DNA of 20,175 bases. Origin: a virus. Below, one piece after another: positions 971 through 19,094 of this stretch. The stretch is from positions 1-20,175 of IMG/VR virus record IMGVR_UViG_3300013306_000064. One strand, 5' to 3'. Numbering within the stretch: position 1 is the first letter of the stretch; every line of letters begins with the position of its first letter. The notes beneath the pieces were generated by a model. The model worked only from the letters and a program-made list of their open reading frames with translations, did no database searches and was not told the origin of the DNA. The position numbers were made by a program, and so were the translations under genes.

Positions 971-1870
971 ATGTGGAAACCTTCTTTACTCTCATTAAAA
1001 GATAACTTTAAGCAAAGAGCAACAAACCCATTCCTGGGAACTTATATCCTGGTATGGGCTATAAGGAACTGGAAATTGCTTTACACTGTATTCAATTTTG
1101 ATAAGAATACAACCCTGGATGGTAAGGTGAAATTCATTTCAGAATATTATGGGAAGGGTGATTTCTTACTTAATCTTTGGCAGAACGTTTATATCTCTTT
1201 CATTGTTCTAACAATAACCTATGTTTTAATTGCAGTTTCCAGATTCATTATTGATTTCTTTGAGAAAAGAATCACACCATGGATTGCCAGATTCAATGAT
1301 AAAAGTTCAATTGTTCTTAAGACTACTTATTTAGAATTGCTATCTGAAAGGGATGAACTGGAAGAAAAGATTGCGAAGGAACGTGAATCAAAATCAAAAC
1401 TTGAATCAAAAATAAAAAATCTGGAAGATGATGTTGTTGAAGCAAGAAAAGCAACTGAAACTCAAATGGTGAAGGAATTAAAAGATAAAATTCAAGAGGC
1501 TGAAAGAAAGCATGAAAACTTACAAACCACAAAACAAGCTTTGGAATTAAGGTTAAATAATTTAGAACAGCATGTGGGTCGTCCAGGAACTTTAATTATA
1601 AATCCCTTACAAGAAATCTACAATCAACTTAATGAGGACAAATTAATAGATGAATTTAAACACATTGCACGTGACATAAGATTAGGCAGGGAAATAAATC
1701 GAGGGAACCAATACGTAAGTAAGTTCAAGGAACTTGACTTAATTAGGACAACATCCAAAGGTGATGCGATTAAAGTTCCGTATGAACTTACAAATTATGG
1801 GAAAGAATTAGTCAAAATAATTGAAGATATTGAAGAAGTTCAGAAAGCCGATTTTCCACACACAGTTTAA
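971..1870 (+). CDS. Membrane, coiled-coil, winged-helix-like accessory protein
   Basis: Encodes 299 residues on the strand opposite to all structural genes, between holin and endolysin. The N-terminus has the pattern RATNPFLGTYILVWAIRNW, which I recall from a widespread unnamed family of bacterial membrane proteins. Two membrane segments are likely at about 23-42 and 70-94. Residues about 122-200 form a highly charged coiled coil. The C-terminal 80 residues (about 214-290), with helices followed by LTNYGKELV, resemble a winged helix. The stop codon overlaps that of the convergent holin gene by 4 bp. Position and orientation suggest a moron, expressed separately from the late genes, perhaps in the lysogen. 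A defence or superinfection-exclusion role is possible but unproven. Confidence 0.75.
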   Translation: MWKPSLLSLKDNFKQRATNPFLGTYILVWAIRNWKLLYTVFNFDKNTTLDGKVKFISEYYGKGDFLLNLWQNVYISFIVLTITYVLIAVSRFIIDFFEKRITPWIARFNDKSSIVLKTTYLELLSERDELEEKIAKERESKSKLESKIKNLEDDVVEARKATETQMVKELKDKIQEAERKHENLQTTKQALELRLNNLEQHVGRPGTLIINPLQEIYNQLNEDKLIDEFKHIARDIRLGREINRGNQYVSKFKELDLIRTTSKGDAIKVPYELTNYGKELVKIIEDIEEVQKADFPHTV

Positions 1871-2415: not shown

Positions 2416-2901
2416 TTAAATTGAAGTAATTATATCACCGCCTCCAAGCCCTTCAGCTGGTGGTTCTGTTATTTTGGTTGGAGTTGCACATGTGTTCTGG
2501 CTCCTTACAACTGAAAGGGTAATTCTGAAAACAATCCCTGCAACCCTATCACCTGTATCATCAGTGAACTTTTGAATGCTGGTTGATTTATTGAACACCC
2601 ATCCTTCTTCCCTTTGCAGATAAGCAAAGAAATCTTCAGCAACCAGGATGGAATCAGAATAAACATCATCAACCTGGTGTGGTTGGTTTGGATCAGTCAT
2701 ATCACCAATGCTCACTTTGAAATTATAATTCAGATATGTGTTGTTGATTGCAGCATCCAGGAATTCAATGTTCGTTACTGGATAGGATAAGTTCCTTTCA
2801 GCATTGAAACTGAAATCATCTTCATATCTCACATCATTGATCTGGGCATGTTCTGCAAACCATGCTTTCAACTTTATCTTTATAGCGTTTAATGTTAACA
2901 T
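2416..2901 (-). CDS. Tail terminator / tail completion protein
   Basis: A 161-residue protein resembling a group common in Bacteroidota phages, in which a conserved YPV motif is followed by a central SD(S) and D-F-F-A-L pattern, a DxTGDxVAG segment and a C-terminal Cys-x-x-P. Here: SYPVTNIEF, YSDSILVAEDFFAYL, TDDTGDRVAGIVF and NTCATPTK. Such proteins are thought to cap the tail tube at the head-proximal end, though this assignment rests on family memory and on the position after the connector. It begins 2 nt after the stop of the connector-fibre gene and is followed 3 nt later by the holin, so all three are likely coupled. Confidence 0.65.
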   Translation of the reverse strand: MLTLNAIKIKLKAWFAEHAQINDVRYEDDFSFNAERNLSYPVTNIEFLDAAINNTYLNYNFKVSIGDMTDPNQPHQVDDVYSDSILVAEDFFAYLQREEGWVFNKSTSIQKFTDDTGDRVAGIVFRITLSVVRSQNTCATPTKITEPPAEGLGGGDIITSI

Positions 2902-2903
2902 GA

Positions 2904-5711
2904 TTAAATATTTTGTTTTCTAATAAAAAACTGTTCTTCAACAAATAATTGTCTGACTGTTGAACCAGCTGATTTTATTATTGATGCAGCACCTGTTGCA
3001 GTACTGTTACCTGAAGTTTGATTTAATAATATTAGATTTCCACCGCTTGGTGTGATAGTTCCAACAGAAACACCATCAACATAAAATGAATAATTGCTGT
3101 TTGCAACACTTCCAACAATAACCAATGAATGAAGTTTTGTTGTATCAACAGTAACTGTACTATTTAAAGTTGATAAAACGTTTCCTACACTTCTATAATT
3201 AGCGACCCATTTGCCCGAATTAGTTCCATGTGTATAGGTGAAAAACGCCCCACCACCTGTTCCACTGGTATTTCCAACACATCCAACATAAACTGTGAAT
3301 GTATTTGTTGCATCAGAAAGTATTGGAATGTTAACCCTTCCACACCATATGAATTTCTTTAAGTTGTAGCCAGGATAATGGAATGTTGTTCCCTGTTGGT
3401 TTATTATACCAGCCCAATTTGATGTTCCTGTTCCAGTATCTAAATTGATACCTGTTGCAATGGTTGCAGTTCCTGACATCCTTGATGATGTTCCACCAAA
3501 AGAACTGTTCGCAAACATGGAACCAGTTAAACCATCAGTGAAGTTTTCCCAATAATCAATATTTGCTGGAACCTGCCAAACCCACATTTCACCATCATAA
3601 ACATACATTCCTTCTAACTCATCTGTTTGATAAAATTGCTGACCAGTTGAAGGTGCTGAAATTCCAACCCTTGTTAATCTTGTTCCAGATGTTGGAACAA
3701 TTGTCCAGCTTCTATTTGCACTCAAATCATAAGTTGTTCCATTGATGGTGATTGTTCTGGCATTGGTAACAGGTGTATAACCTAAAGCTGTTGTTATCAT
3801 TGAAGATGTAACAGCTGAAATATATCCATTTGGATTGGTCGCATTGTATGGAGTATAACCTAATGCTGATAATATCATTGAAGATGTTATTCCATTAATG
3901 TATCCATTTGGATTGGTCGCATTGTATGGAGTATATCCCAGCGCACTGGTAACATCAGAACTTAATAATGTGATTGCACCTGTTCTGTTGTTGAATGTAA
4001 TAATCGCATCTGTATTGTCCACCTTTTTCCAGGCTGTTCCAATTGAGATAATCCAATCCCCCAGGTTCCAATCTGTAATTCCGCTTTCATTTGTTGAACC
4101 TGCAACAGTTACAATAAAATACCAACCTTCATTCAATGATGATGAAGCTGGTATTGATGAACCATTAATGGTTAAATCAGATGATGTGATTGTGTTGGCT
4201 GAAGCATTCCAGAACCCTTTGAATTTGGTTGCTCCCAAAACAGCATCAGGAAGAAATGATTCATCAACCTTACCAGATGAATTCAATGGTGTATATCCAT
4301 TAGCAATTCCTTTATTAGATATTTCTTCAAATGGTGTGTAATCAATTCCATCAACCAGTCCATCAACTTCTGTTTTGGTATAATAATTACCTTTCTCTGA
4401 ATTCCAAACTGGATCAGTTTCTTCAATCGCATCAATCAAACCATCAACCTCAGTTTTCTGATAATAGTTTTCCTTTTCTGATTCCCAAACTGGATCAGTT
4501 TCAGTTATATCCACGCCAGCAATCAAATCATCAACCTCTGGTTTGGTGTAATAATCACCCTTTTCATCTTCCCAAATTGGATCAGATTCAGTTGATGGTG
4601 GAACCAGGGATGAACTGTTTGCAACAAAATGTGAATGACCACCCAGGAACCAACCAATGGATGTTGATGTTGTATCATCATCACCAACACCAAATTTGTT
4701 TGCTCTCAGATAATCAATGAGATTCTTTTTATAGGTGATGGAATCATTTTCATATTCCTTTCTCACCGCTTCCAATTCCTGGGATGAAAGATTTGAAGCT
4801 GAATTATCATTCAGCTTCATCAATCCTTTGTTGGTGATTTTGTAATTGTTTATCACCAGGTATTTTGAAACCACCCTGTTAACCAGGAACGGTTTGATGT
4901 AGTTGTTGATTAAATCAGTATAAAGGCTGTTTATTGGCACACTGTTAACCTGGAACTGATAAACAGCTTCCAATACCTTAACATATAAATTAAGGCCCAG
5001 GATTGCTTTTAAATCAATATCCTGAACAGCTTGTATTGTTTTGGATAAAACCTTTGCATCCACATTGGTTTCAATGTTGGTTTCAGTCTTAACCTGTTGC
5101 TCACTCACCAACAGAACCTTCCTTAATGTTCCATCAAATGTTTGAACTGGTGTTGATACATCCGCTGAAGAAGGTAAGGAAGAAACAATGTTTTCCTTTT
5201 TCTTAGTTGGATATTTACCCAGGAACCATCCAATGGATACTGATGTTGTATCTGTATCTGATTTGGAAGTTAAAAGGTTATTAGCTCTTAAGAATTCAAT
5301 CAATGCTTCCTTATAGGTGACCGCATAATTGTCATAATAATTCTTCAGATATTCCAGTTCATCACTGGAAACATTTGTTGCAGAATTATCACCCAGCTTC
5401 ATTGTTCCTTTGTTGGTGATTTTGTAGTTGTTCACCACCAGGAAATGAGAAACTGATTTATATAAAAGGAATGGTTTTACATAACCATGCAATAATTCTG
5501 AATAAAGGGATGAAAGGGTTGAACCGCTCACCACATTATCATGAACAGCATCAACCAACCCATTGTATAATTCCAGGCCCAGGATTGCTTTTAAATCTGT
5601 TTCCTGAACCGTTTGAATGGTTTTAGATAAAACCTTTGCATCCACATTGGATTCAATGTTGCTTTCATTTTTAAGCTGTTCTTCTGATATGAATAAAACC
5701 TTACTTCCCAT
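2904..5711 (-). CDS. Fusion of two connector domains to a fibre
   Basis: About 935 residues from ATG 5711. An upstream in-frame ATG at 5744 lies inside the ATACTAA element and is rejected because all other copies sit 16-19 nt before the start. Two homologous domains occupy about residues 3-162 and 196-359. Each has NVDAKVLSKTIQ, LKAILGL, Y(V/I)KPFL, NKG(T/L)MKL, SS(D/Q)ELE and SIGWFLG, and each resembles the DUF6712/gp6-type head-tail connector of Bacteroidota phages. Next come three repeats of about 28 residues with the pattern DP(V/I)W-EK-YY-K-EVD-L, a KGFWNAS fibre segment, GYTPYNATNPNGYI repeats, and a C-terminal beta-rich domain of about 220 residues that may be a jelly-roll lectin-like receptor-binding head. 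It is preceded by a terminator and element and is coupled to the tail terminator. A neck fibre is the best reading. Confidence 0.8.
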   Translation of the reverse strand: MGSKVLFISEEQLKNESNIESNVDAKVLSKTIQTVQETDLKAILGLELYNGLVDAVHDNVVSGSTLSSLYSELLHGYVKPFLLYKSVSHFLVVNNYKITNKGTMKLGDNSATNVSSDELEYLKNYYDNYAVTYKEALIEFLRANNLLTSKSDTDTTSVSIGWFLGKYPTKKKENIVSSLPSSADVSTPVQTFDGTLRKVLLVSEQQVKTETNIETNVDAKVLSKTIQAVQDIDLKAILGLNLYVKVLEAVYQFQVNSVPINSLYTDLINNYIKPFLVNRVVSKYLVINNYKITNKGLMKLNDNSASNLSSQELEAVRKEYENDSITYKKNLIDYLRANKFGVGDDDTTSTSIGWFLGGHSHFVANSSSLVPPSTESDPIWEDEKGDYYTKPEVDDLIAGVDITETDPVWESEKENYYQKTEVDGLIDAIEETDPVWNSEKGNYYTKTEVDGLVDGIDYTPFEEISNKGIANGYTPLNSSGKVDESFLPDAVLGATKFKGFWNASANTITSSDLTINGSSIPASSSLNEGWYFIVTVAGSTNESGITDWNLGDWIISIGTAWKKVDNTDAIITFNNRTGAITLLSSDVTSALGYTPYNATNPNGYINGITSSMILSALGYTPYNATNPNGYISAVTSSMITTALGYTPVTNARTITINGTTYDLSANRSWTIVPTSGTRLTRVGISAPSTGQQFYQTDELEGMYVYDGEMWVWQVPANIDYWENFTDGLTGSMFANSSFGGTSSRMSGTATIATGINLDTGTGTSNWAGIINQQGTTFHYPGYNLKKFIWCGRVNIPILSDATNTFTVYVGCVGNTSGTGGGAFFTYTHGTNSGKWVANYRSVGNVLSTLNSTVTVDTTKLHSLVIVGSVANSNYSFYVDGVSVGTITPSGGNLILLNQTSGNSTATGAASIIKSAGSTVRQLFVEEQFFIRKQNI
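3823..3935 (-). repeat. 26-residue coding repeat in the fibre
   Basis: The same 35-bp stretch occurs at 3823-3857 and 3901-3935, exactly 78 bp apart. It encodes two consecutive 26-residue units of the form ALGYTPYNATNPNGYI plus a spacer; a third, partial unit (ALGYTPV) follows. The near-identical DNA suggests recent duplication or gene conversion in the fibre shaft. Confidence 0.85.
4341..4592 (-). repeat. Three 28-residue DPVW repeats in the fibre
   Basis: Three consecutive units of 27-29 residues, each with DP(V/I)W, then EK, then YY and K.EVD.L. They are divergent at DNA level but clearly related. They link the second connector domain to the fibre shaft and probably form a trimeric or elongated stalk. 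Confidence 0.8.
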
Positions 5712-5767: not shown

Positions 5768-5794
5768 AATAAAAAACCCCAGGAACCTGGGGTT
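5768..5794 (-). terminator. Intrinsic terminator after the portal gene
   Basis: On the minus strand AACCCCAGG and CCTGGGGTT form a stem of 8-9 bp and are followed by TTTTTTATTT. It begins 5 nt after the portal stop codon. The stem and U tract are nearly the same as those of the terminator at 8101-8134. Confidence 0.9.
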
Positions 5795-5799
5795 GAATG

Positions 5800-7656
5800 T
5801 TATTGTTTCTTTCTCTTTACTGAATAAGCTTTCCAGGTGTGTCTGCAATATGGGGTTGTTTCATTGGTATCTGGGTTATGGTAAAAACCCCCAGCATAAG
5901 CATAAACATCATATCCAAATATGGAACCCATTGTTTGAATCTCGGCCCTGGTATATAACCTGTCATTTTCAATCAGCTTAACACAAAAGCTTCTGGATGT
6001 TGAAAGAATATCAGCACCGTTCACATCTGGCCTTTTCTCATATTTATACATGGTGAAAATCCCATTGTTCTTTGGTTCATCAGCTGTTTCATTGGGTTGA
6101 ATTTGAACACCCTTCTTTTCATCAATCTTAACATCAACAACACCAGCTTCAGTTAATTTGGATAATACATCCTTCAGATCAGATTCAGTTAACTTCAAAT
6201 TCAAATCCTTTTCAATCTTTGAATTGAGTTCTTCCAGACTCAAACCATTCACATCATTTTCCAATAGGTAATTGGCAATATCTGATTCCTTATCAAAGTG
6301 AAGATGGTGTTCATGCTTGGCTTCACCCAGGATTTCAAATTCTTCAGAAGATAAACCCAGGTGTTTCACCTGTTCATAATCTTCTTCAGTTAACTTTCTC
6401 TTTACTGGTTCAGGCTTTTTTTTTACATCTTCCTGAATGGTAGGTTGAGCAACAACATCAGCTTTTGGTTCACTCACCTTTGGAACCTCACTGATTAACC
6501 TATCACCATTTTTTAATGCTGGCAATCCAGCTTCAGCCCTCAATTCATTTATGGTTAATACCTTTTCTTTAAGTGATTCAGATAACTGAGAATTGAATAA
6601 TGGTTTATCAGCAAACTTCACTGGTGATGTAACACCTGGGAAATTGGAAAACAGTTGGTTCAATGCTGATTCAACTTCATCCCTTTTAACTCTGATATAT
6701 GTGTTCTTAAATATCTCATATGCTGTTTCCAGTTCTGTTGCTCCGCCCAATTGACCTTCAGTCTTAATACCCATCAACATTGGTGATGTAACCTGGTGGC
6801 CTTTTAGAATATCATCAGATGTATCTTTTCTGAGAACTTCATATGCTTCACTCCAATCATTTGCACTCAATGATGAAACTTCAGCTGGTTTACCATCCTG
6901 GTTCTGGAAATCAACAATGATTTTCTTTCCATTCTCACCTGTATAGCTGGCCTTTAAATCTGCAATAACCTGTTCCTTTACTTCTTCAGGAACGTTTGAA
7001 CCCTGGAAGAATGTGATGATATTGGAAACACTGAAGTGATTCTTAATATTGTTAAGGTTGAAATCTCTGATTGCAATATCTGTTGCAATTGCTTTAATGG
7101 CTCCTGAATATTCTGGTTTGGAATAAACATTGTTTACTGTTGGAAAGTAACCATCAAAGAAGAATATTTTGGATGTTGAATCTTTTTTGTTGGGTGACCA
7201 TCTGTCATATGTGACATGCTTCCTGGATAACCTCCAATCATCATTGAACCAGAACTTTGTTTTGCTTTTGTTGGTTCTTATCTTATGTGCTGGAACATGG
7301 TGATATTCCACTGGTTCCCCAAACACATTATAAACAACCTCAACCCCCACATAATTGAAGATTAAATAATCTTTGATAACCTTATCAACAAACTCTTTGA
7401 TGTTATCAGATGCATTCACTTTGAAGTTCAGTTCAGAACCGTTCTTATATTTCAAACCATCCCCAATGATGTAAGTTGTTTTGGTGTTGATGATTGCTGA
7501 ATGAATCGGTGATTCATTATATAATTCCAGCAAATAGTTTGGATATAAGTTGTTGGAACCGTAATTCACCAGCTTTGTATCACTCACTTCCTTACTCTCG
7601 TATGGTACAGGAATGTTATCCTTTTCAAATTTTATTACTTTTAAATGTTCAGCCAT
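5800..7656 (-). CDS. Portal protein with extra C-terminal domains
   Basis: A 618-residue protein forming the ring at the capsid vertex through which DNA passes. Residues 1-390 look like a Bacteroidota-phage portal: VNYGSNNLYPNYLLELYNESP near the N-terminus, TYIIGDGL, and a C-terminal core with KGHQVTSPMLMGI and TINELRAEAGLP, the usual portal end. The last 230 residues are additional: a charged linker, a compact helical segment (about 450-517) that reads like a winged helix, and a final segment (about 553-610) with SRSFCVKLI, TRAEI and TPYCRHTW. That last segment resembles the Cys/His motif of MuF-type minor head proteins. No separate MuF gene is present, so portal and minor head functions may be fused. 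It is followed by a terminator. Confidence 0.85.
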   Translation of the reverse strand: MAEHLKVIKFEKDNIPVPYESKEVSDTKLVNYGSNNLYPNYLLELYNESPIHSAIINTKTTYIIGDGLKYKNGSELNFKVNASDNIKEFVDKVIKDYLIFNYVGVEVVYNVFGEPVEYHHVPAHKIRTNKSKTKFWFNDDWRLSRKHVTYDRWSPNKKDSTSKIFFFDGYFPTVNNVYSKPEYSGAIKAIATDIAIRDFNLNNIKNHFSVSNIITFFQGSNVPEEVKEQVIADLKASYTGENGKKIIVDFQNQDGKPAEVSSLSANDWSEAYEVLRKDTSDDILKGHQVTSPMLMGIKTEGQLGGATELETAYEIFKNTYIRVKRDEVESALNQLFSNFPGVTSPVKFADKPLFNSQLSESLKEKVLTINELRAEAGLPALKNGDRLISEVPKVSEPKADVVAQPTIQEDVKKKPEPVKRKLTEEDYEQVKHLGLSSEEFEILGEAKHEHHLHFDKESDIANYLLENDVNGLSLEELNSKIEKDLNLKLTESDLKDVLSKLTEAGVVDVKIDEKKGVQIQPNETADEPKNNGIFTMYKYEKRPDVNGADILSTSRSFCVKLIENDRLYTRAEIQTMGSIFGYDVYAYAGGFYHNPDTNETTPYCRHTWKAYSVKRKKQ

Positions 7657-8100: not shown

Positions 8101-8134
8101 AAATAAAAAACCCCAGGATATAAATCCCAGGGTT
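8101..8134 (-). terminator. Intrinsic terminator after the tail-tube gene
   Basis: On the minus strand AACCCTGGGA pairs with TCCTGGGGTT (10 bp with two G-U pairs in RNA), loop of 6 nt, followed by TTTTTTATTT. It lies about 32 nt downstream of the tail-tube stop codon and shares the sequence AATAAAAAACCCCAGGA (plus strand) with the terminator after the portal. Confidence 0.88.
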
Positions 8135-8165
8135 TCATGAAATGAATATTAAGAACCATTATTAA

Positions 8166-10404: not shown

Positions 10405-11022
10405 TTATTTCTTAGTATGCTTTAGCATGTTGTTCAACAGCTGAAGGGATTGAAGGATTTCCTCATCCTGTTTTGATTCATCAACACTTTGGAATTTTTG
10501 GGTTTCAAAGAATTCAAACATTCCTTCAATGCTGAATCCTTTCTGGTTTCCACCTTTGATTGAATTCCAAACATTCTTATCCTGAACCTTCACACCAATA
10601 ACCCAGGAACCATCTGGAAGATTTAAACCTTTTGGTGAATTGATTCCTTTGCTCTGATCCACAATGAAGGATTGAAACACAAATGATTTGGCTGTGGTTT
10701 CGGTGTGGTCCAAATTCAGATTCATCTGGAACCCCTTTTTGAAGAACACCTGGGAAATTGTTCTAATGGTTTCTTTGGTGAAATACACTTCATATTCTTC
10801 ACCGCTCTCATCATCCCTTCTGTATATTCTCATATTGGGAATCATTGCAGCTCCCAACAATTCCATCTTGGAATCATCAGTTGCAAACCTTACTTCCTTT
10901 TCCATCTTTGCGAATGCCAGGAAATCAGATTCAATTGCTGGTTCATCCACCAGTGCAATTGCATCAACTACAAAATCAGAATCTTCATTAATCCTTAGTT
11001 CATAAACAGGTAATCTATCCAT
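10405..11022 (-). CDS. XkdF-like prohead protease
   Basis: A 205-residue protein resembling the XkdF-type putative phage serine protease, which processes scaffold and capsid during maturation. Motifs visible: N-terminal IALVDEPAIESDFLAF, typical of the family; LNLDHT with H106 as the likely catalytic His; and KGFSIEGMFE with S164 as the likely nucleophile. It is first in a unit followed by scaffold and capsid. The start codon (11022) lies in a long inverted repeat and 18 nt downstream of an ATACTAA element. Its last codons carry the element for the scaffold gene. The family name is recalled from motifs. Confidence 0.85.
   Translation of the reverse strand: MDRLPVYELRINEDSDFVVDAIALVDEPAIESDFLAFAKMEKEVRFATDDSKMELLGAAMIPNMRIYRRDDESGEEYEVYFTKETIRTISQVFFKKGFQMNLNLDHTETTAKSFVFQSFIVDQSKGINSPKGLNLPDGSWVIGVKVQDKNVWNSIKGGNQKGFSIEGMFEFFETQKFQSVDESKQDEEILQSLQLLNNMLKHTKK
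10412..10428 (-). promoter_or_regulatory. ATACTAA element, scaffold copy
   Basis: Minus strand ATGCTAAAGCATACTAA, with a 5-bp dyad ATGCT/AGCAT. Nineteen nt separate it from the scaffold ATG at 10392. It is part of the coding sequence of the protease C-terminus (MLKHTKK and stop), so DNA that codes for protein has been shaped to keep the element. Confidence 0.6.
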
Positions 11023-11098: not shown

Positions 11099-11136
11099 TG
11101 TGTGCATATTAAGTGTTGGAAATACACACACTGTTT
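11099..11136 (+). terminator. Leader hairpin with U tract (possible attenuator)
   Basis: TGTGTG-CA-TATT (11099-11110) pairs with AATACACACA (11121-11130), a 10-bp stem with a 2-nt bulge and a 10-nt loop, followed by CTGTTTTTT. It lies 25 nt upstream of the start of the plus-strand gene at 11162, so it would be in its leader, where it could act as an attenuator. If the promoter lies downstream of it the hairpin has no such role. Confidence 0.45.
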
Positions 11137-11141
11137 TTTAC

Positions 11142-11158
11142 CTTCAATTAAATTGAAG
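11142..11158. promoter_or_regulatory. Dyad before the plus-strand gene pair
   Basis: CTTCAATTAAATTGAAG is a perfect dyad of two 8-bp halves around a central A. It ends 3 nt before the ATG at 11162. It may be an operator for a repressor, perhaps one of the winged-helix-like proteins encoded next, or an RNA hairpin with no loop. Its closeness to the start codon means bound protein or structure would affect expression. Confidence 0.5.
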
Positions 11159-11161
11159 AAT

Positions 11162-11644
11162 ATGAATTTTAATAATGCGAAAAAGGAAGTCTTGGAGTAT
11201 CTATTTGAAGGATATCTTGCCAATGGTGGAACTCATCGATTCTATATTCAACACATCACCGAGAAATATGGAATTGATTCTGATAAATTGGGTGAAATGT
11301 TAGTTCAGGATGGGTTAGTTAAGAACCAGAATTATGGTCTTCCTGGAGGTTTCATGGGCCAGATAACCATGGCTGGAATTGCAAATGTTAAACCCCAGCA
11401 TCTTTTGGATAATCTTTCAACTGTTCTTTCAGTTTTAGGTGAAAGTGGAAATCAGTTAACAGGATTAATGGATATACTTATACTTGAAACAAAGGATTAT
11501 CAAATTGCACATGATTTTGGCCATTACCTGTATAGCAGAGGAATTATTGAAGAACCCATATTCGTACATGATGTTTATGTAAAACTGAATTTAAGAGGAA
11601 TGCAGATGTTCGAGGAAATCAAGCCACGTTTCATGCAACTCTAA
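11162..11644 (+). CDS. Winged-helix-like protein, paralogue 1
   Basis: A 160-residue protein starting at ATG 11162; an in-frame GTG at 11102 is rejected because it lies in the hairpin and would add residues absent from the paralogue. It aligns along its full length with the next gene: HITEKYGI/HITDRYKL, L(V)QDGLV/LVKDGLV, the I-x-G-I-x-x-(V/I) wing, then GLMDIL/GIMEML and a C-terminal KLNLRGMQMFEEIKP/KLNRNGLEAFQETKP. Each half has helix-turn-helix character ending in a (I/L)-x-x-x-G-x-x-x-F/V strand, so there may be two winged helices per protein. I do not recognise the family; DNA binding is inferred. It forms an opposite-strand island inside the structural genes. Confidence 0.75.
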   Translation: MNFNNAKKEVLEYLFEGYLANGGTHRFYIQHITEKYGIDSDKLGEMLVQDGLVKNQNYGLPGGFMGQITMAGIANVKPQHLLDNLSTVLSVLGESGNQLTGLMDILILETKDYQIAHDFGHYLYSRGIIEEPIFVHDVYVKLNLRGMQMFEEIKPRFMQL

Positions 11645-11654
11645 ATTATCAGAA

Positions 11655-12164
11655 ATGATTTATCTTCAGAAAGAAGAAGACAGGATAACCTTAGCTAAAA
11701 TTGAAGCACTCAGAACGCTGTTTACTTTATATCAAACATGTGGCGCAAATGGAATGCTATCCCTAAAGCATATAACAGATAGATATAAATTGAATCCAGG
11801 TGATTTTGGAAGGTTATTAGTAAAAGATGGTTTGGTAAGGAAACAAATATTTTCCACTAAAGATTTTCATGCAACAATTTCAATCAAAGGAATTGAAATT
11901 GTTCAACCAGATTATTTACCAGGTCATACTTCAACTATCATTAGAATATTGGGGAATAAGAATGAACCCACTGGCATCATGGAAATGTTAGGTTTGAATC
12001 CTAAAGCATACAGATTAGCCTGTGATTTAGCTGATTACTTTCGCAAAAAAAAGAAGATAATTGAACTTCCAATCTATAAAATAGATGATGTATTAATTAA
12101 GCTAAATAGAAATGGTTTGGAAGCTTTCCAGGAAACCAAACCATTCTTTTATCATCTTAAATAG
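11655..12164 (+). CDS. Winged-helix-like protein, paralogue 2
   Basis: A 169-residue paralogue of the preceding protein, starting 10 nt after its stop codon, so the pair is one operon. The N-terminus has about 10 extra residues. The two share the same order of motifs over about 150 residues, implying an old tandem duplication, since DNA identity is low. The basic run FRKKKKIIE (about 131-139) is specific to this copy. Its end overlaps the end of the convergent tape-measure gene by 8 bp, both stop codons lying within 12157-12164. As an isolated opposite-strand pair it fits a moron that is expressed in the lysogen or acts on another replicon; no function can be read directly. Confidence 0.75.
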   Translation: MIYLQKEEDRITLAKIEALRTLFTLYQTCGANGMLSLKHITDRYKLNPGDFGRLLVKDGLVRKQIFSTKDFHATISIKGIEIVQPDYLPGHTSTIIRILGNKNEPTGIMEMLGLNPKAYRLACDLADYFRKKKKIIELPIYKIDDVLIKLNRNGLEAFQETKPFFYHLK

Positions 12165-16925: not shown

Positions 16926-19061
16926 TTACCATGTGTATGAAACACATTCAGAAATTAGCGGCCTAACCGCTGTAATTACAACATCAAACAAATCACCTGT
17001 TCCTTCTTCAACCTCACCATAATAATATTCTGATGATTCATCTGTTCCATCTGGGATGATTATATTGGGAATGTGATAATAAGTTCCAGTATCATCAACC
17101 AACCACCAGGAAACCCTGGCATTTGCATTCACGTTTGCTGATGCATGAGCTGTTACATAAATTTTATCTGGTGAACCAGATGTTGTTTCAATTCTTATTG
17201 TTGCTGTGATAGTGATGGTTGCAAGTGATGTGGAACATGTTCCATGTGTATTTGCATATTCCTGGCCATTTGCAGCAATATCAGCCAGGGCCAAATCATT
17301 TGCTTCTCCCAGTGTTAAGGCCCAATATGTATCAGCTGGAACGATGTATGTAACAGCTGAACCACATGGTGTTGTTGAAATATCACAATCATCCCTAATG
17401 AAATCCTGGGTTTGTTCCTCGTTTCCAACACCAGTTAAACATTCACCATTATCATTTGCATATTCCTGTTTATTCAATTCCAGGTATTCCAATGCAGCTG
17501 CATTTGCTTCAGCCAATGTTTCCCTATAAAATGTATCAGGTGAAACAACCATTGTTACCTCTGATCCAACAAACCCATCACCACAATCATTCTTCCTGGC
17601 TGTTGCTGTTTGTTCCTCATTACCCACACCAATTGAACAGGTTCCATGATGGTCACCATAAACTGGCCCATGCCCTGCCACATCATCATCAGCCAATGCA
17701 TTTGCATCATCCAAACTGAGGTATGAAAAATAGGTATGTGGTTCAACAACATATTCAATTGGTACTGCATACCATCCAGTTGGACATGTATGGGATGAGA
17801 ACCAACCGCTTCTTCTTTCATTCCAGAATTTGGTGTTCAGGATGTAAGAGATATTCCCAGATGATAATGAAGGAATAATATCTTCAGGAAAGGTGAATTC
17901 AAAGTTCATTTGATTCAGCTGGCCCTGTTGATATTTGGTTCTCTGGAATTGGTAACTGTCATTCTTAAGAGTTATTGGAATCAATGTTCCAGTGGTTAGT
18001 TCAACATAGAGTTGTTTTGAATTAACCATTTCACATAACCATCCAACTTCCTTATCATTAATAACCCTGGTATAGGCTTTAACACTCAGCTGGGATTTTG
18101 AATCATATATTTCTTCAGTTGAATTGAATATCCCATTGCTGAAATCTGTATATGTTCCAGCTTCCATTTTAAAAGGATTCCTTTTGATGCTGGCTCTGGC
18201 AACTGCCATTGATTCCTGGGGTTGAATAAATTGATAACAATCCAAACCACCCAGGGAATTCACCCACAACACATTCATCACTTCCAGGTTGCATTCTGTT
18301 TCTTTATAGTCATATCTTTTAACCTCAGTTAAAATGTTTCCGCTCTCATCCTTCAGATGAACAGTGTAATATGTAACACCTGTGAAACTCACTTCCAGGG
18401 AATCAATCAGCTTCTTTGGTGAAACCTGAATCCTGAACATTTTATAATCATCCAGATCAGTGATTTCCTCATTGTAGGTGTTCAACAATGCATTGGAAGA
18501 ATCAAATGTTTTAATCACCGCATAAACTTCATCCTGGTTTGAGTTAATGAAATACAACTGTTCAGTTGAAAAATCATTCACATAGCTGTTTGGTTTAAGG
18601 GTTAAGAAGTTTGATTTAACCGTATCATTCAACACATGTTTGTTCTGGTTGTAAGAATGGAATGATAATCTGTCAAACTCACCGTTCCAGGTATAATATG
18701 TTGTGGCTCCTGTGATGGTGGATGATAATGGCTCCAGGGTTGTTGAACCTGTTGTAACACCCATTTCAGTTATGTTCAGTTTATAACCAAATATGGATTT
18801 GCTTATCCCTTTGGAAAACACATTTGAATTATCCACCTCTTTTGAAACCAGGTTGGAAAGAATCTTTGAAAGATTGATATGTGAACCAACAGAATAATCT
18901 GGTGAAGCATATATATCATAGTTCCCAACTGTTGAACTGGAAACAGCTTCCAGGATTTCAATGTTGAAATAAACCAAAGCTGAGTTATCAGATTCCACCT
19001 GGAACCCATTTGGGTTCCCAGCTGGTGAATAATCTGATGGTGTATGAATGAATGAAATCAT
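16926..19061 (-). CDS. Tail-tip protein with DUF5977-like repeats
   Basis: About 711 residues from ATG 19061. Upstream in-frame ATGs at 19094 and 19076 are rejected because 19094 is inside the ATACTAA element and the 17-nt spacing fits 19061. The first 400 residues are beta-rich, with HTPSDYSPAGNPNGFQVES at the start, typical of tail proteins of this phage group. Residues about 416-610 hold three repeats of about 60 residues, each with a Cys (NDC or DDC), a T(Y/F) segment, a LxxANxLA helix, a Y(A/G)(N/D).(H/N)G-C end, and VGNEEQT between units, which matches the DUF5977 type. A C-terminal beta domain of about 90 residues ends the protein. A role in host contact is likely from the repeats and location; the receptor is unknown. 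Confidence 0.78.
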   Translation of the reverse strand: MISFIHTPSDYSPAGNPNGFQVESDNSALVYFNIEILEAVSSSTVGNYDIYASPDYSVGSHINLSKILSNLVSKEVDNSNVFSKGISKSIFGYKLNITEMGVTTGSTTLEPLSSTITGATTYYTWNGEFDRLSFHSYNQNKHVLNDTVKSNFLTLKPNSYVNDFSTEQLYFINSNQDEVYAVIKTFDSSNALLNTYNEEITDLDDYKMFRIQVSPKKLIDSLEVSFTGVTYYTVHLKDESGNILTEVKRYDYKETECNLEVMNVLWVNSLGGLDCYQFIQPQESMAVARASIKRNPFKMEAGTYTDFSNGIFNSTEEIYDSKSQLSVKAYTRVINDKEVGWLCEMVNSKQLYVELTTGTLIPITLKNDSYQFQRTKYQQGQLNQMNFEFTFPEDIIPSLSSGNISYILNTKFWNERRSGWFSSHTCPTGWYAVPIEYVVEPHTYFSYLSLDDANALADDDVAGHGPVYGDHHGTCSIGVGNEEQTATARKNDCGDGFVGSEVTMVVSPDTFYRETLAEANAAALEYLELNKQEYANDNGECLTGVGNEEQTQDFIRDDCDISTTPCGSAVTYIVPADTYWALTLGEANDLALADIAANGQEYANTHGTCSTSLATITITATIRIETTSGSPDKIYVTAHASANVNANARVSWWLVDDTGTYYHIPNIIIPDGTDESSEYYYGEVEEGTGDLFDVVITAVRPLISECVSYTW

Positions 19062-19078
19062 TAAAATATCTTTCATTC
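19050..19078 (-). promoter_or_regulatory. Hairpin around the tail-tip start codon
   Basis: On the minus strand GAATGAAA (19078-19071) pairs with TTTCATTC (19057-19050), an 8-bp stem whose 13-nt loop holds the start ATG (19061). The 5' arm begins directly after the ATACTAA element. Unlike the endolysin and tape-measure cases the start codon is in the loop, not in the stem. Confidence 0.45.
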
Positions 19079-19094
19079 TTAGTATGCGGAGCAT
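19079..19094 (-). promoter_or_regulatory. ATACTAA element, tail-tip copy
   Basis: Minus strand ATGCTCCGCATACTAA, identical over 16 nt to the copy at 5729-5744, 13 kb away. Seventeen nt separate it from the start at 19061. Upstream lie four ACCTTAAG boxes. This is the first copy in the direction of transcription. Confidence 0.62.

Follow-up and report, generated by a model that had tools for sequence, protein, structure and literature searches.

Can a head-tail adaptor, regarded as a small and largely buried component of the DNA gate, carry a fibre? The question is raised by a long gene in IMG/VR record IMGVR_UViG_3300013306_000064, positions 1-20,175. This whole stretch of 20,175 nucleotides, a single metagenomic contig and an incomplete one, is called the window below. 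The initial annotation of the window had read in this gene two connector-type domains, repeats, a fibre shaft and a tip, and had proposed that its product forms neck fibres.

Layout of the fusion gene

All these parts are indeed present in one ORF of 946 codons with two Pfam domain matches (Table 1), and its likely start agrees with the boundary at 5711 given by the initial annotation. This start, the ATG at residue 12, is the most plausible one, as AAAGGAAAG is found upstream of it and the homologous single-domain proteins begin at the matching position. A candidate hairpin in the interval after the portal gene suggests that the portal and the fusion are transcribed separately. Similar terminator-like hairpins are observed on the (-) strand at 8107-8136 and 5775-5794, on either side of the portal transcription unit.

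Table 1. Coordinates of the fusion gene, its parts and the adjacent features in the window
Feature	Coordinates	Strand	Basis and remarks
Fusion gene, 946 codons	2904..5744	-	unbroken ORF; likely translation start 5711
DUF6712 adaptor domain, copy 1 (residues 12-178)	5211..5711	-	Pfam, BLAST; AlphaFold pLDDT about 90
Linker between the DUF6712 copies (residues 179-206)	5127..5210	-	predicted disordered; pLDDT <50
DUF6712 adaptor domain, copy 2 (residues 207-370)	4635..5126	-	Pfam, BLAST; fold as in copy 1
Linker between copy 2 and the repeats (residues 371-385)	4590..4634	-	predicted disordered; pLDDT <50
Three 28-residue repeats DPxW..EK..YY.K.EVD.L (residues 386-469)	4338..4589	-	read from the translation
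Fibre shaft (residues 470-730)	3555..4337	-	phrog_13892; homology to fibre genes of related phages
C-terminal tip, LamG/concanavalin-like (residues 731-946)	2907..3554	-	Laminin_G_3, under the Pfam cut-off
Tail terminator gene, directly after the fusion	2416..2901	-	AlphaFold pLDDT 85; fold match Z up to 13.2
Portal gene, directly before the fusion	5800..7656	-	Phage_portal E 4.7e-11; PHROG portal families
Intrinsic-terminator-like hairpin, portal/fusion interval	5775..5794	-	consensus match only

The Pfam family DUF6712 (PF20459) matches two stretches of the fusion protein (E 6.7e-33, 113.7 bits, curated cut-off 25 bits), and a DUF6712 profile built in this analysis matches both copies at about 1e-34. 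An alignment of 164 residues gives 59% identity between the copies (BLAST E 7e-67). Thus chance similarity is ruled out and the duplication is real. At the DNA level the identity is 68%, with dN 0.33 and dS 0.81, and the excess of dS over dN suggests that both copies are retained under constraint. The AlphaFold model gives them the same fold of four helices and a hairpin, with pLDDT around 90 in either copy, whereas the mutual placement of the two domains is not fixed by the model (pTM 0.49).

That the second half is a fibre whose tip is of a binding type is supported as well. Residues 472-605 match phrog_13892, a minor tail protein (E 3.9e-13), and the shaft carries GYTP.NATNP.GYI repeats at about residues 603-660. 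The last 215 or so residues resemble Laminin_G_3, with a score of 22.6 bits (E 1.3e-4) that lies under the Pfam cut-off of 27.6. Codons 309-623 of the ORF contain no ATG, and thus no separate start codon is apparent for the fibre part.

Codon use in the fibre half agrees with that of the other structural genes. The stop codon of the fusion and the ATG of the terminator gene are separated by two bases; in two prophages of the same neck organisation, from Filimonas (L164) and Mucilaginibacter (L165), the terminator gene overlaps the DUF6712 gene. The uniform codon use and the close spacing make a chimeric contig unlikely, and both flanks of the gene are syntenic with those of related phages. A single miscalled stop codon cannot account for the fusion either: the single-domain proteins of two related contigs, L006 and L007, end shortly after a GW[FY]L motif, whereas the ORF of the window continues past both copies of this motif and enters linkers with a high content of Ser, Pro and Thr.

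Several other genes of the window were noted. On the opposite strand, two small genes of similar appearance at 11102-12164 (+) separate the tape measure gene from the protease gene, and the first of them has codon use unlike that of the structural genes. The holin/endolysin interval contains an opposite-strand gene at 971-1870 (+), possibly an accessory addition, whose product is likely to be a membrane protein and has a long coiled coil. A large tail-module protein with three DUF5977 stretches is encoded at 16926-19094 (-).

DUF6712 as a candidate head-tail adaptor

In siphophages, the head-completion proteins are encoded between the portal and the terminator, with the adaptor first (PMC4362835). 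The fusion occupies exactly this place in the window. The product of the gene that follows it has the fold of a tail terminator (Z 13.2 with P74-26, 12.8 with Mu and 12.4 with lambda gpU), which identifies the site as a neck module.

The same place is occupied by DUF6712 genes elsewhere. We collected 152 DUF6712 ORFs in 163 loci plus the window from several scans, some loci overlapping on the same contig; the portal-based scan took 80 viral loci of the 594 matching. All these ORFs but that of the window are single-domain, and nearly all encode 150-250 aa. Viral DUF6712 ORFs follow the portal, in most cases immediately, and the gene behind them usually encodes a protein of 140-250 aa. The order portal, DUF6712, terminator was found in more than 50 viral loci and also in the Filimonas and Mucilaginibacter prophages, the DUF6712 proteins there being single-domain and about 170-200 aa long. 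The closest relatives among the matches listed are L006 and L007, with portals 51-53% identical to that of the window, and the Filimonas and Mucilaginibacter prophages, with portals 50% and 47% identical to it, respectively. In L007 and both prophages, the portal is followed by a single DUF6712 protein of 166-191 aa and then by the terminator, whereas L006 has one extra ORF in between. In L006, a gene (879-1655) that by eye resembles a GIY-YIG homing endonuclease also separates the major capsid gene from the structural gene next to it.

Structural comparison points in the same direction. Among the five top VIA matches there are four phage neck adaptors, namely the Bxb1 connector (Z 7.4), YqbG (7.4), the Douge connector (6.3) and the SaPI1 neck protein (6.2). 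Helical models can reach Z values of about 6-7 by chance, and such values are not a proof by themselves. YqbG is presumably a relative of the gp15-type adaptors, and the best structural matches of the fusion domains fall in the family of SPP1 gp15 and HK97 gp6. These adaptors (Ad1, 'neck 1' class 1) are likewise portal-adjacent and encoded upstream of the terminator, and they are formed by a small bundle of 4-5 helices (PMC4362835, PMC10491603), a make-up that is also predicted for the domains of the fusion. However, each Ad1 adaptor described there is a protein by itself, with a length of about 100-210 aa, and none of them has a fibre, whereas the protein of the window is doubled and fibre-bearing; the class 4 adaptor gp13 of T4, of about 310 aa, has other extra domains (PMC4362835, PMC10491603).

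Other searches were less informative. The DUF6712 profile had no match among PDB sequences up to E 10, and sequence searches of PDB gave no convincing match to the adaptor, terminator or fibre part. Foldseek of the whole tandem model against PDB returned helical noise only, and BFVD gave matches to phage proteins of both single and double length, most of them without a name. In the literature searched, mostly outside subscription journals, no paper names DUF6712. On the other hand, the DUF6712 proteins encoded after the portal in Polaribacter phage Leef_1 and Cellulophaga phage Ingeline_1 are labelled 'adaptor' by VirFam. Taken together, the gene slot, the predicted fold matches and the VirFam label on these double-domain relatives from cultured phages make it very probable that these Bacteroidota phages use DUF6712 as their head-tail adaptor.

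Thus the repeated domain is very probably a connector, as the initial annotation had it. Two findings could have spoken against the proposed neck fibre, a separate connector gene with the fusion placed at the tail tip, or an unrelated fold. No DUF6712 gene besides the fusion was found in the 20 kb of this incomplete contig, and the structure predicted for the domain pair is an adaptor-like helical fold with modest Z values.

Tandem adaptors and fibre fusions in related phages

The layout had been thought to be undescribed. For the tandem this did not stand: the two-copy adaptor itself is not new. Bacteroidota genomes were drawn in four sets of 395-400, with some genomes repeated (about 1,590 genome scans). 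Their DUF6712 proteins form two size classes, one of about 150-270 aa and one of about 310-366 aa, and many proteins of the latter class give two DUF6712 matches. Such free-standing double genes (L176-L195, L216:4207-5145, L217:1844-2770) are common in Bacteroidota prophages and are also present in cultured phages; where the context was read (L187, L188, L195), they adjoin a portal of another type. Three genome matches lie in longer frames of 510, 540 and 756 codons; the first corresponds to a double-domain ORF of 317 aa, and the other two have no match to our DUF6712 profile. Viral contigs scanned with a double adaptor yielded no relatives, and the plasmid scan yielded two weak matches.

Leef_1 gp7 and Ingeline_1 gp3 share with the window two DUF6712 domains per chain in the gene right after the portal. 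Both phages are cultured siphophages (morphology, PMC8776804), and thus a two-domain adaptor works. However, these double forms have no fibre, and their duplication is a different one. In a tree of 54 DUF6712 domains, the first halves of eight double forms constitute one clade (99/87) and the second halves another (97/87), so that this duplication is old and its halves have diverged. The two copies of the window are sisters (100/99) inside a single-domain group (99/92 with L006, L007 and L164); thus they were duplicated separately and recently, and not in the event that produced the double forms of the Leef_1 and Ingeline_1 type. The Leef_1 and Ingeline_1 proteins themselves are outside the tree and were matched to half-profiles instead.

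No adaptor-fibre fusion besides that of the window was found in about 150 viral DUF6712 ORFs, nor among the DUF6712 genes of the Bacteroidota genome scans. When IMG/VR and GTDB genomes were searched with the two adaptor domains or with their alignment, no close relative of the fusion was found, only four distant single-domain relatives. The fusion sought in other Bacteroidota phages was thus observed in no other DUF6712 gene searched. Within the literature covered, to which most subscription journals do not belong, we found no described adaptor joined to a fibre.

Another neck protein of related phages is, however, fused to fibres. In four contigs (L031:4488-7055, L079:3998-7324, L088:618-3185 and L089:5992-9369), a terminator domain is in frame with a long fibre, the proteins having 855 to more than 1100 aa. 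Their shafts share sequence with the fibre of the window in L031/L088 and L079, with 72% identity over 50 residues for L031 and 62% over 37 for L079. In a Chitinophagaceae genome (L222:1653-3455), a terminator domain is followed by a triple-helix shaft of the collagen type (PF01391, E 1.5e-42) and then by a C-terminal domain. L022 has a free-standing terminator followed by a separate fibre gene. As in the window, a neck ring protein is fused to a fibre shaft in these relatives, but the protein fused is the terminator, which normally forms a hexamer, whereas in the window it is the adaptor. Given the fibre-fused terminators of the four contigs and the collagen-like one of L222, beside the adaptor fusion of the window, neck ring proteins appear to have captured fibres more than once in these phages. 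A gene just upstream of a window-like terminator (L223:2-1324) encodes a right-handed beta-helix with a spike-like end and is cut at its 5' side by the contig border. This gene may represent a second fusion of an adaptor to a spike; neither a portal nor DUF6712 was found in the L223 assembly when the missing 5' part was sought.

Candidate architecture of the neck

The reading that we consider probable is a neck ring with collar fibres, formed by the head-tail adaptor of the phage itself after a tandem duplication and the C-terminal addition of a fibre whose tip is lectin-like. The adaptor domains would bind the portal and complete the ring of 12 adaptor positions, which would place the protein at the neck of the virion. 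These positions would be filled most simply by six chains with two domains each, a 6 x 2 stoichiometry suggested by the counts; such a ring may also bypass a symmetry mismatch, as the initial annotation proposed. If the two domains take two of the twelve places, the number of chains equals that of the hexameric terminator which carries fibres in the relatives. The fibre parts would leave the ring via the flexible linkers, and their tips would presumably bind a receptor, so that the collar fibres could aid the hold on the cell surface as accessory receptor binders. The shafts of phage fibres are usually trimers; thus six chains would probably trimerise into two fibres, and the six separate neck fibres proposed initially are doubtful.

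Fibres at the neck have precedents. The neck passage structure of lactococcal phages of the 936 and TP901-1 groups consists of neck fibres with carbohydrate-binding tips and a role in accessory adhesion (PMC6669499, PMC4493119). It is, however, a protein of its own that the phage can do without, and its N-terminal ring domain is BppU-like, whereas in the window the N-terminus is DUF6712 and the ring part is the adaptor itself. The isolated tip domain of a lactococcal collar fibre bound host cells weakly, and accessory adhesion was proposed (PMC6669499). By analogy, accessory adhesion is the likely benefit of the fibres encoded in the window. In crAss001, also a phage of Bacteroidota, tail fibres are carried by adaptor-like 12-fold rings of the proteins R1/R2, but this phage has a podovirus-like tail, and the fibres dock via separate hub proteins with no covalent fusion (PMC10172136).

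The main alternative to the six-chain ring is that the two domains of each chain belong to two stacked 12-fold rings, twelve chains then forming four trimeric fibres at the neck. The disordered linker between the copies, about 30-40 residues long, would permit two layers, and several rings of adaptor-like proteins are piled up in crAss001 (PMC10172136). However, copies with 59% identity are better suited to equivalent positions of one ring than to different layers, and the ring proteins of crAss001 are far more diverged, with 15-31% identity (PMC10172136). We regard the stacked arrangement as unlikely.

Still less probable is a repurposed protein, in which DUF6712 merely anchors the fibre, at the neck or elsewhere, and the true adaptor gene resides in the missing part of the genome. 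The 20-kb contig is incomplete and indeed has no terminase. However, the fusion sits in the exact adaptor slot from portal to terminator, and the host genomes of the Filimonas and Mucilaginibacter prophages each hold one DUF6712 match, in that slot.

It is very improbable that the protein is cut after translation and that the virion receives a free adaptor and a free fibre. Long disordered linkers in the model and a phage protease gene at 10405-11022 would fit such a cut, but the protease is of the head-maturation type and no processing site was identified in the fusion. Moreover, separate genes are usual in the relatives, and cleavage would leave the retained fusion unexplained. That the fusion is an artefact of a chimeric assembly, or a dead gene of a decaying prophage, is barely credible: it is known from one metagenomic contig, but it is open over its whole length, dN is below dS between its copies, both flanks are syntenic with those of relatives, codon use is uniform, and two bases separate its stop from the next start.

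Returning to the doubled, fibre-bearing adaptor, we tentatively suggest a broader picture, which is less secure than the reading of this locus: siphophages of Bacteroidota may repeatedly turn essential neck rings into fibre platforms, using a doubled adaptor here and the terminator in relatives, with six fibre chains per neck. Such a virion would have covalently anchored collar fibres and would need no separate collar protein.

If an adaptor and a fibre are indeed combined in one chain, the adaptor ring tolerates covalent appendages, and phages of Bacteroidota could gain collar fibres with no new docking protein. Doubled adaptors also make the 12-to-6 step at the neck testable, as their copy number should be six if a double chain takes two positions. 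Finally, DUF6712, a family of unknown function, gains a supported function.
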